Source: Aquiflexum lacus
GTDB lineage: Bacteria; Bacteroidota; Bacteroidia; Cytophagales; Cyclobacteriaceae
DNA: 64,000 nt
Direction of reading: 5' to 3'
Assembly (NCBI RefSeq): GCF_015476655.1
Contig: NZ_JABFHF010000001.1
Coordinates: forward strand, 1-64,000
The position numbers were made by a program, and so were the translations under genes. The number at the start of each line of letters is the position of its first letter. Position 1 is the stretch's first letter. The notes under the pieces are model-generated. The model ran no database searches and had not been told where the DNA came from. It saw only the letters and a program-made list of their open reading frames with translations. Positions 4,491 to 40,842 of the stretch are shown one piece after another.

Positions 4491-4874
4491 TTAATCCTCC
4501 AACCCATTTACAATCCTCTTAAAACCATATTTTATCAATTTCTCATTGAAATTTATCAACAAACCCAGTTTGATATCCGTGAGTTTTAAGTATGTATTTA
4601 CCTGCTTAAAATGTTTGGGATGAAGGGTTTCTACAGCCTTGATTTCTATTAAAACTTTTCTTTCTACAATTAAATCTGCTTTAAAACCTTGCTCAAAGAC
4701 AAGATTGTCCCATTTAACCTTGATTTCCTTTTGCCTTACTACATGCAATCCTTTTTTTGTCAGTTCATGTGCTAAAATGTTTTCATAAACAATTTCATAC
4801 AGACCAGGACCGAGCGTGTAATGGATGTGGTATGCAGAATCAAAAATTTCTCTAGCTATATCATTTTCTGTCAT
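4491..4874 (-). CDS. GxxExxY family protein (PD-(D/E)XK nuclease-like)
   Basis: A 127-residue protein with the family-defining GPGLYEIVYE at about residues 22-31. The nuclease-like core KADLIVERKVLIEIKAVE at about 64-81 supplies the D...ExK residues of the PD-(D/E)XK fold, followed by HFKQVNTYLKLTDIKLGLLINF. The family is widespread, often multicopy, and of unproven function; a DNA-cleaving activity is inferred from the fold. It starts MTENDIAREI. The gene is enclosed by a 26-bp inverted repeat pair (4425-4450 and 4943-4968), which suggests that it moves or is maintained as a 544-bp unit. Confidence 0.88.
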   Translation of the reverse strand: MTENDIAREIFDSAYHIHYTLGPGLYEIVYENILAHELTKKGLHVVRQKEIKVKWDNLVFEQGFKADLIVERKVLIEIKAVETLHPKHFKQVNTYLKLTDIKLGLLINFNEKLIKYGFKRIVNGLED

Positions 4875-4942
4875 TTATTTCAGCATCTATATTGGAATGG
4901 CGATAACTTTTAGATTCAAGCTAATTTAATTCAATTTTTTTT

Positions 4943-38938: not shown

Positions 38939-40072
38939 TTACAGACCAACGAATTCCTCAAATTCCTTTCTACTAACCACAGCCGTCTGATGTTCAGGAT
39001 AGGATTGGAGAAAAGATGCCGGAAATCTGACTTTCTGATCTTTCCATTTGAATTCAAAGGCATACAGGACACCGTCCGCCTCTTCGATGTAGTCAATTTC
39101 CGCTTGGTCATGGGTGCGCCAAAAGTAGGAGTTGACAAACTTTTGGTTGTATGCATTTTGCTTTAATCTTTCAGAAATCAGGAAATTTTCCCATAAAGCT
39201 CCTTTGTCTTGTCGGATTTCAGGAAGCGAAAAATTACTGATGAGTACATTTCGAATTCCGTTATCATAAAAGTAATATTTCTTACCCTTCTTGATTTCAT
39301 TCCTTTGATTACGGCTAAAAGCAGGAAGTTTGAAAATAACAAAGGCTTTTTCCAATAAGTCAAGGTATTTTTCAACTGTGGCCGTATCTATATTTCCTAC
39401 GATTTGGGCCATTTCATGGTAACTGACTTCACTTCCAACTTGAAAAGCCAATGCCTTTAATAGTTTTTCGATATGGCTTGGTTTTCGGATGTTGTCTATT
39501 TGCAGTACGTCTTTGTAAAGATAGCTTTGGGCAATTTCTATCAAGATCTCCTTTTCATTCCCGGGATTGTTTACTACCTCAGGATAAAATCCATAAACCA
39601 ACCTTGAGTCCAACAGTCTTTTGGCTTCAATCAGGGAGGTATGGTTTACTGTTTCTTTGAAGGTAAGCGGGAAAAGATGAAAGGTTTTTTTTCTTCCGGT
39701 CAATGGTTCAGCAGTTTGGTTTTGAAGATCAAAAGCCGAAGATCCGGTTGCGATGATTTGTATGTCAGGTCTATTGTCGAAAATGAGCTTAAGTTTTTTG
39801 CCGATTTCGGGAATCTGTTGCGCCTCATCTATGATGACCAATTTGTTGTTGGTCCCAATAAGTTGGATCAATTGGGTACTGGTGACTGCATAAGAAAAAG
39901 CTTCCAAAATATCCGCCTCATCAGCATTGAACCAAATAGAGGAGACATTTAAGTGCTTGACAATTTCTTTTAAAAGTGTTGTTTTCCCTACCTGTCTTGG
40001 TCCAAGCAGTAAAATGGTTTTGTCCTTGAAACAGGAAGATATGATCTTTTCATCAAGTGCTCTAGTTATCAT
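38939..40072 (-). CDS. AAA family ATPase with DUF4143
   Basis: A 377-residue protein with Walker A LLGPRQVGKTTLL at about 22-34, Walker B LVIIDEAQQIPEIG at about 93-106 and sensor IIATGSSAFDL. A C-terminal DUF4143 region holds LLEKAFVIFKLPAFSRNQRNEI and an ending LYAFEFKWKDQKVRFP, which carries a nuclease-like ExK pattern. The function is unproven; such genes are accessory, multicopy and often linked to mobile DNA. The promoter region carries a striking array of 32-bp units (about 40095-40216). Confidence 0.9.
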   Translation of the reverse strand: MITRALDEKIISSCFKDKTILLLGPRQVGKTTLLKEIVKHLNVSSIWFNADEADILEAFSYAVTSTQLIQLIGTNNKLVIIDEAQQIPEIGKKLKLIFDNRPDIQIIATGSSAFDLQNQTAEPLTGRKKTFHLFPLTFKETVNHTSLIEAKRLLDSRLVYGFYPEVVNNPGNEKEILIEIAQSYLYKDVLQIDNIRKPSHIEKLLKALAFQVGSEVSYHEMAQIVGNIDTATVEKYLDLLEKAFVIFKLPAFSRNQRNEIKKGKKYYFYDNGIRNVLISNFSLPEIRQDKGALWENFLISERLKQNAYNQKFVNSYFWRTHDQAEIDYIEEADGVLYAFEFKWKDQKVRFPASFLQSYPEHQTAVVSRKEFEEFVGL

Positions 40073-40094
40073 AGTTGCTTAATTACGGATCAAA

Positions 40095-40216
40095 TATACC
40101 GAATATTTAGATTGTAATCTAAAAAATACGCCTAATTTTTCGATTATAATCTAGATATTACGCCTAATTTTTCGATTACGTTCTAAATATTACGCCTGAT
40201 TTTTAGAATTAATTCT
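40095..40216. repeat. 32-bp-period array with palindromic sites
   Basis: Short dyads centred at 40114.5 (AGATTGTAATCT), 40146.5 (GATTATAATC), 40178.5 (GATTACGTTC, degenerate) and 40210.5 (AGAATTAATTCT) are exactly 32 bp apart. Between them TACGCCTAATTTTT occurs at 40127, 40159 and 40191 (as TACGCCTGATTTTT in the last), with a weak version at 40095. The array ends about 20 bp upstream of the AAA/DUF4143 start codon. It looks like phased protein-binding sites, three helical turns apart. Confidence 0.8.
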
Positions 40217-40356
40217 TTTATTCTACCTAGAAATCTAAAAAATTAACCTCGCCAAAAAATATCAATGAATATCCACAAGTATCAAACAATATCCTTCGAT
40301 CCCCCAAACCAGATCCCATTAAAATCAGATTTTTTGAAAAATAGTATTGATTTCCA

Positions 40357-40842
40357 TCAAAGTTTCTGATACATAATATAAGCATTAGTCATTCCTAAAT
40401 GCATGTGATTAAATGCTTCCGGAATTTCCCCGATGATTTTAAATCCCAATTTTTGCCACAATCGTACTGCCCCTTGGTTACTTTTCACAACAATGTTAAA
40501 CTGCATGGCTTGATAGCCAAGACGTTTTGCTTCTACCAATGAGAATTCTCCCATAGCCAACCCTACTCCCTTTCCCCTAGCAGAAGGCAAAGTCAGATAA
40601 CCTGCATTGGCGATGTGGGAACCAAGGTCAGGTTGATTGTCTTTGATAAAAAGAGTTCCCACAACTTCTTCATCAATGATAGCAACATAAGAATGCTTGT
40701 CCGGCCCGCACCAAAATTCCAACATCTTCTCCTTGGAACTGTCAGGGCTGAAAGCAATAGTGTCACCTCCGGCGATTACCTGTTTGAGGATGTTCCAGAT
40801 TTGGTCGTAGTCGGTTGGTGTTGCTTTTTTTATTTCTATCAT
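40357..40842 (-). CDS. GNAT family N-acetyltransferase
   Basis: A 161-residue protein. ARGKGVGLAMGEFSLVEAKRLGYQAMQFNIVVKSNQGAVRLWQKLGFKIIGEIPEAF (in parts, about 89-145) contains the acetyl-CoA P-loop R-G-K-G-V-G and the N..A..L..K-x-G-F motif typical of RimI/PhnO-like acetyltransferases. It resembles Bacteroidota and yeast Mpr1/YhhY-type enzymes; the substrate is unknown. It is monocistronic, 18 bp after the next upstream gene's stop on the same strand. Confidence 0.9.
   Translation of the reverse strand: MIEIKKATPTDYDQIWNILKQVIAGGDTIAFSPDSSKEKMLEFWCGPDKHSYVAIIDEEVVGTLFIKDNQPDLGSHIANAGYLTLPSARGKGVGLAMGEFSLVEAKRLGYQAMQFNIVVKSNQGAVRLWQKLGFKIIGEIPEAFNHMHLGMTNAYIMYQKL

Follow-up and report, generated by a model that had tools for sequence, protein, structure and literature searches.

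The window, as we call the whole 64,000-nucleotide stretch of Aquiflexum lacus DNA analysed here, carries on its minus strand the gene for a 377-residue AAA_14/DUF4143 ATPase, preceded by an array of 32-bp repeats. On one side the array faces the start of this gene; on the other lies a GNAT gene (40357-40842), also on the minus strand, whose 3′ end points towards the array. An initial annotation of the region correctly placed the array upstream of the ATPase gene. Its further statement that nothing else adjoins the array needs qualification, as the GNAT gene ends on the far side and a promoter-like box precedes the ATG. The features of the locus are the following.

38939-40072, minus strand: AAA_14/DUF4143 ATPase gene, 377 aa, PADLOC type PDC-S01 (profile matches; AlphaFold2 model with pLDDT 92.3)
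39650-40024, minus strand: AAA_14 domain, residues 17-141 (Pfam PF13173, E 9.9e-33)
39287-39562, minus strand: putative winged-helix-like helical segment, residues 171-262 (named from the secondary structure of the model, boundaries set by eye)
39044-39514, minus strand: DUF4143 domain, residues 187-343 (Pfam PF13635, E 2.8e-41)
39047-39094, minus strand: PD-(D/E)XK signature, D327...E340-x-K342 (from the sequence; the fold match is weak)
40091-40098, minus strand: promoter-like box TATATTTG, fitting TAnnTTTG, starting 26 bp ahead of the ATG on the gene side of the array
40102-40219, no strand: 32-bp array upstream of the ATPase gene (TRF, shuffle test; dyads out to 40219)
40106-40123, no strand: dyad 1, centre 40114.5, nearest the promoter-like box, 16 of 18 bases symmetric
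40123-40138, no strand: interleaved spacer dyad, centre 40130.5, 12 of 16 bases symmetric
40138-40155, no strand: dyad 2, centre 40146.5, 14 of 18 bases symmetric
40155-40170, no strand: interleaved spacer dyad, centre 40162.5, 12 of 16 bases symmetric
40170-40187, no strand: dyad 3, weak, centre 40178.5, 10 of 18 bases symmetric
40187-40202, no strand: interleaved spacer dyad, weak, centre 40194.5, 10 of 16 bases symmetric
40202-40219, no strand: dyad 4, centre 40210.5, 12 of 18 bases symmetric

The array heads the 34 tandem-repeat rows that TRF returned for the 64-kb window, with a period of 32 and 3.2 copies over 40102-40204 (score 136). Lag-32 autocorrelation of positions 40086-40245 reaches 0.66; 1000 dinucleotide shuffles gave at most 0.50, and the best unrelated place elsewhere in the window gave 0.47. 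The four dyad centres originally proposed do lie exactly 32 bp apart, with the one at 40178.5 weak, and the array thus consists of three fair dyads and one weak dyad. The spacer said to be shared at 40127, 40159 and 40191 (TACGCCTAATTTTT) is exact at the first two positions, while the copy at 40191 has one mismatch (TACGCCTGATTTTT). These spacers form a second, interleaved series of dyads, so that the lattice may be viewed as a run of half-sites, each about 16 bp long, whose orientation alternates.

The array adjoins the putative promoter of its own gene, the TATATTTG box at 40091-40098. TAnnTTTG is the −7 consensus of Bacteroidota promoters. The distance from the dyad 1 centre to the box start is 16 bp, a register on the lattice that is also found in relatives.

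A CRISPR array was considered and excluded, as had already been concluded in the initial annotation: the spacer itself repeats, the entire 32-bp unit is tandem, and there are no unique spacers. Rfam CRISPR direct-repeat models align at 40318-40348 and 40215-40241 below gathering score (E 0.019 and 0.41), most likely by chance. A stretch of 10-bp period (aatatcaatgaatatccacaagtatcaaacaatatcc) lies behind the array at 40253-40293, and such a stretch also occurs beside an array that stands without an ATPase gene in a sister species (L252, about 1400-1450).

The window protein matches the PADLOC model PDLC04789 over residues 1-375 (E 6.1e-162), which places it in PDC-S01, a candidate phage defence consisting of a single gene. 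The best fold matches of its AlphaFold2 model are two archaeal AAA+ ATPases, PABY2304 (2qen; Z 17.1, rmsd 3.2, 253 aligned residues) and SSO1545 (2fna; Z 16.7, rmsd 3.4, 257 aligned residues), followed by NLR/CED-4 chains at a Z of about 14 and, lower, Orc/Cdc6. Both archaeal proteins align with residues 1-279 and exclude the PD-(D/E)XK part. On this model, the window ATPase is predicted to have a STAND-like AAA+ fold. Matches to the AAA part fill the list of the whole-model search, and no PD-(D/E)XK chain is among its best 50 matches. The isolated C-terminal model (pLDDT 83.9) shows a weak likeness to PD-(D/E)XK nucleases, with a best Z of 5.3 and rows that comprise many nucleases alongside unrelated proteins; Foldseek with this model returned nothing below E 0.016. 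The PD-(D/E)XK signature is kept in 104 of 118 family members, the window protein among them.

The window's genome contains 17 DUF4143 matches, and 31 of the 61 Bacteroidota genomes drawn have a match at E ≤ 1e-10. The load is uneven within Bacteroidota, with 15 matches in one genome (G138), seven each in two others (G131 and G175) and none in others.

Repeat arrays across the ATPase family

Inspection by eye of the paralogues in the window's own genome revealed that many have repeats or dyads directly before the start codon, differing from one paralogue to the next. Repeats of 22 bp (L001), 32 bp (L004, L005, L007) and 33 bp (L012) were seen, as were dyads at L010, L014, L016 and others. In 51 of 77 loci of relatives a direct repeat was significant at p ≤ 0.005, in 49 cases at lag 32; among controls the figure was 11 of 240. 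This set includes many close relatives, and its controls, upstream regions of other frames unfiltered for intergenic position or further family members, are cruder than those used below. Three of an original 80 loci were left out, two as partial matches (L098 and L110) and a third, presumably L069, for an N in the region.

A less redundant set was scored for direct or inverted repeats within 150 bp upstream, with 184 intergenic controls drawn from the same loci and the window. Of 226 profile-matching frames 200 were kept; those dropped lacked a Walker motif or start, were too short, encoded an identical protein, had less than 150 bp upstream or contained N. The initial annotation had suggested looking for arrays at other AAA/DUF4143 genes, and they are present there: a significant upstream repeat or dyad was found at 78 of 117 members less than 70% identical, against 9 of the 184 controls (Fisher p 5e-32). 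The signal persists at 34 of 58 members less than 50% identical (p 7e-18; 58 of the 59 representatives in this tier were tested) and at 14 of 26 less than 40% identical (p 2e-9), both against the same controls. No upstream repeat was detected at p ≤ 0.005 in 39 of the 117 members, nor at p ≤ 0.02 in 25 of them.

Members on plasmids and viral contigs behave similarly: of 16 put through two tests, 12 reach p ≤ 0.025 in one or both, and 8 reach 0.005. They span Spirochaetota, Pseudomonadota, Chlamydiota, Deinococcota and unknown hosts; those without a significant repeat come from Nitrosomonas, one Thermus, Acinetobacter and one viral contig. The sample comprised 15 plasmid records, picked by eye for diversity from 60 listed (548 had a match), and the three relatives found on viral contigs, one of them a fragment. 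Two of these 18 loci were left out, one from Runella with no start assigned (L236) and the fragment (L234), and for two viral loci the 'start' is the start of the match and not an ATG. The upstream array is thus a family-wide feature, which also occurs outside Bacteroidota. At one further locus (L170), a palindrome of about 60 bp (ctgactgaattaacgtaaattgcgtcagttaactgacgcaatttacgttaattcagtca) lies directly before the gene start.

The spacing of the repeats is helical. Significant lags (p ≤ 0.01) among 29 members less than 50% identical fall at 22-23 bp (6), 32-34 bp (19), 40-41 bp (2), 19 bp (1) and 36 bp (1), and the two main clusters correspond to about two and about three helical turns. Clustering on the helical repeat is also found for the lags of 12 members less than 40% identical (Rayleigh p 7e-4), so that the phasing on helical turns originally proposed for the window array holds across diverged members. 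Within the window-type clade of 46 loci, whose unit consensus is TAATtTTTaGAtTaTAATCnAAAaATTAGGCc, successive dyads are exactly 32 bp apart in 51 of 52 cases and 33 bp apart in one.

Of the 117 members, 45 have a TAnnTTTG box no more than 80 bp from the start, compared with 28 of 184 controls (p 8e-6). At 19 of the 46 window-type loci an exact box follows on the downstream side of the last dyad found, and its start lies 16-18 or 46-49 bp from the centre of that dyad, in register with the lattice; at the other 27 no exact box was found there.

Array sequences travel and diverge with their genes. In 541 of 561 pairs of window-type loci the DNA on both sides is unrelated, and the arrays nonetheless align, with a median score of 39.5; a flank stretch gave 9.0, and shuffled arrays gave 11.5 and never more than 21.5. 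A conserved neighbour gene, which could have encoded another regulator, was not found, as only 10 of 1188 locus pairs below 75% identity share any neighbour. Array similarity tracks protein identity with a step at about 60%, its median being 10-14 below this value and 31-56 above it. In a partial correlation of domain identities, AAA-domain identity is the best predictor of array similarity (partial 0.22), and the winged-helix segment barely predicts it (partial 0.05, with 67 of 500 permutations as high).

Within its own genome, the window array matches itself and the array of a 50%-identical paralogue (E 2e-8), everything else having E > 0.1, and the arrays of five further paralogues each match one place. 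The arrays are private to each paralogue, and their sequence follows the protein and not the genomic place. It had been argued at the outset that homologues lacking an array, with the repeat scattered instead over random intergenic places, would refute the operator reading. In the main the opposite was found, the repeat occurring in the own genome only at two related ATPase genes; in relatives, however, 4 of 27 places are solo arrays and 2 lie beside truncated genes.

Downstream copies, solo arrays and an empty site

These 27 places derive from 40 matches to the window array in 19 of 114 related genomes. Sixteen lie beside an intact ATPase gene, two beside a truncated one (L260, L262) and four are solo; the remaining five are short, weak matches (E 3.6e-4 to 7.6e-4; L263-L267) in loci with no ATPase-like frame, and were taken as chance and not as solo arrays. 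Four genomes (G020, G039, G040 and G043) have an ATPase gene with window-type arrays on both sides.

Across the family, a downstream copy of the upstream sequence was detected for 21 of 192 members and for 4 of 158 controls (p 0.003). Among the 21, L113 looks by eye like a duplicated stretch distinct from the array, and L119, L137 and L188 are weak, with scores of 17.5-24. Where direct and inverted orientation give clearly different scores, the copies are direct (for example L121, L083, L153 and L134), with L126 as the exception. The window locus has no downstream copy of its array.

At the locus corresponding to the window, a sister species (G001) carries the GNAT gene, a solo array of two dyads and lldE, and no ATPase gene. 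Another genome (G064) has the array and lldE, likewise without the ATPase gene. In G053 the array is joined to a remnant of the ATPase gene, and remnants are also present in G039 and G043, with one dyad match in G043. The truncated genes in G053 (L260) and G018 (L262) are fused directly to an array unit, as if a deletion had ended in the array.

A second locus, beside a TonB-type receptor gene (named by eye), could be compared in eight genomes of the genus Belliella. Three of them (G040, G176, G182) have the ATPase gene with an array on each side, and in G180 two further frames lie between the ATPase gene and the downstream array. G177, G178 and G179 carry a solo array, of one dyad in G178, whereas G181 has neither array nor ATPase gene. 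The cognate ATPase is absent from all the solo-array genomes, G001, G064, G177, G178 and G179, in which the best protein matches are 31-51% identical.

G177 represents an exact empty site, with a single array between the flanks of G176. Its left flank and array match the left flank and upstream array of G176 at 93% over 191 columns, and its array and right flank match the downstream array and right flank of G176 at 81% over 196. The two matches overlap by 98 bp, which comprise a hairpin and the array. The event may have been a gain or a loss, and ordinary recombination between direct repeats would suffice to produce it. Taken together, the solo arrays and downstream copies suggest that arrays may also be end points in the gain or loss of ATPase genes. 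Two other comparisons yielded no exact empty site: at the ACR3-PurU locus (G021 and G026 against G020) the flanks are too divergent to place a junction, and for the bracketed paralogue L010 the unit is present in the sister species G001 in rearranged form.

Other repeats were observed near these loci. A dispersed repeat containing AGTCTGAAGACT borders L010 (about 544-592 and 728-777) and occurs at many places in the window's genome (G000) and in G001. A short palindrome of the AACTTTTCCAAAGTT / AACTTTGGAAAAGTT type recurs by arrays in Belliella and relatives and also at sites without an array. It lies directly downstream of the ATPase gene in L056, L063, L064, L065 and L067, is intergenic in L280, appears in L312 at about 4858-4880, and belongs to the 98-bp segment common to both empty-site matches.

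The operator reading and its alternatives

One genome holds different arrays, each following its own protein, and the simplest candidate for the binder is therefore the ATPase itself. We consider it probable, at roughly 0.7, that the array is a private operator in helical phase, where the ATPase would assemble beside its own promoter and restrain it. ATPase protomers, with a predicted AAA+/STAND-like fold followed by the winged-helix-like segment, would bind the alternately inverted half-sites, presumably cooperatively. With one main dyad every 32 bp, or about three helical turns, the protomers would be aligned on one face of the DNA beside the promoter. An ATPase bound in this way would hold its own expression low, and its release from the array, for instance on phage attack given the PDC-S01 label, may induce the nuclease-signature protein. 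As each paralogue has its own array sequence, paralogues within one genome need not cross-regulate.

The comparative evidence gives the operator proposed in the initial annotation good support, with family-wide recurrence, helical lags, co-divergence of array and protein, near-uniqueness in the genome, box register and the absence of a conserved neighbour in its favour. Against the reading as a private operator bound by the ATPase stand the low partial correlation for the winged-helix segment (0.05), the 39 of 117 members without a repeat at p ≤ 0.005, the 27 of 46 window-type loci without an exact box, and the arrays that persist in genomes without the cognate ATPase. A plain promoter operator also leaves the downstream copies unexplained. 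Since arrays occur downstream of genes and on their own, a description as an operator only may be incomplete.

These same features give some weight to an alternative that we regard as unlikely, in which the main role of the array is that of a recombination or target site for a small array-ATPase-array unit. Such a unit would have long direct repeats and solo copies, the ATPase/nuclease itself might act on the array, and regulation would be secondary. Downstream copies in excess of controls, a single array between the same flanks at the exact empty site of one Belliella genome, and solo arrays where the cognate ATPase is absent are all consistent with this. Elements with long direct repeats and solo copies offer a parallel in how they work only: some loci here have an array at both ends of the gene, and one array sits at an exact empty site. 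However, the unit here contains no transposase or integrase, and 171 of the 192 members, including the window, are not bracketed by a downstream copy. Moreover, ordinary recombination between direct repeats gives the same empty site, the remnants at the lldE locus look like deletional decay, and the promoter-box register favours regulation.

A combined role is a rather doubtful prospect. The STAND-like ATPase with its nuclease signature and its private lattice would then form a self-contained unit, in which the lattice would serve both as a self-silencing docking strip and as an entry and exit sequence. Array-to-array events would leave solo arrays behind, and the ATPase/nuclease may promote such events, as in homing. 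If this were the case, the nuclease would receive its arming signal when the lattice is lost or becomes occupied.

It is improbable that the array is an operator for another host DNA-binding protein, such as a nucleoid protein or a general defence regulator. The persistence of solo arrays without the ATPase and the negative outcome of the winged-helix correlation test would fit such a protein, but paralogue arrays differ within a genome, each array accompanies its own protein from genome to genome and from place to place, and the neighbouring genes are not conserved. A role as RNA, either a type III toxin-antitoxin-like repeat RNA or leader hairpins, is very improbable. Tandem repeats of similar length do occur before a gene in such systems, and the strand of the array folds better than its shuffles (z −3.95), but inverted repeats fold well regardless of their role. 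In addition, the spacing is helical, an Rfam search of 39900-40500 found no family at gathering score, and the promoter-like box between array and ATG means that the array probably lies outside the mRNA. That the array is a chance or low-complexity repeat can be dismissed, for although A+T is abundant in the region and repeats are also seen at 9 of 184 control promoters, the shuffle test and the recurrence over the family refute it.

Relation to known systems and implications

A 2026 paper (PMC12988326) ranks PDC-S01 fourth in frequency among the defences of prokaryotes and describes it as an ATPase fused to a member of the PD-(D/E)XK group; most candidates of this kind, it notes, still await validation. 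The window protein is alike in its architecture, the PADLOC definition being AAA_14 plus DUF4143, and joins an ATPase to a putative PD-(D/E)XK part. The accessible portions of the published PDC-S01 descriptions mention no upstream array, operator or downstream copy.

Repeat operators before defence genes are already known, as the available part of the report on RptR shows (PMC12255303). RptR is a homodimeric repressor of a restriction-modification island and binds promoter repeats that hold a small palindrome. The likeness lies in the series of palindrome-bearing repeats in a defence-gene promoter. In contrast, RptR is described as a separate protein of small size with a site conserved from genome to genome (PMC12255303). 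At the loci studied here no separate regulator gene was found, and each paralogue has its own array. For the archaeal ATPases SSO1545 and PABY2304, no report of arrays was found in the open-access literature consulted, and the same holds for descriptions of arrays with DUF4143, COG1373 or PDC-S01. Three points are new: throughout a large family the arrays are private to their genes and diverge along with the proteins, they stand in register with a promoter box, and there is an empty site of the array-to-array kind.

Each private array would provide the DNA ligand of its ATPase, readable directly from the genome. Binding, specificity, the arrangement on DNA and induction could thus be tested directly, and many natural protein-DNA pairs are available for comparison. 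The solo arrays and the exact empty site further point to a route by which such ATPase genes may come and go.
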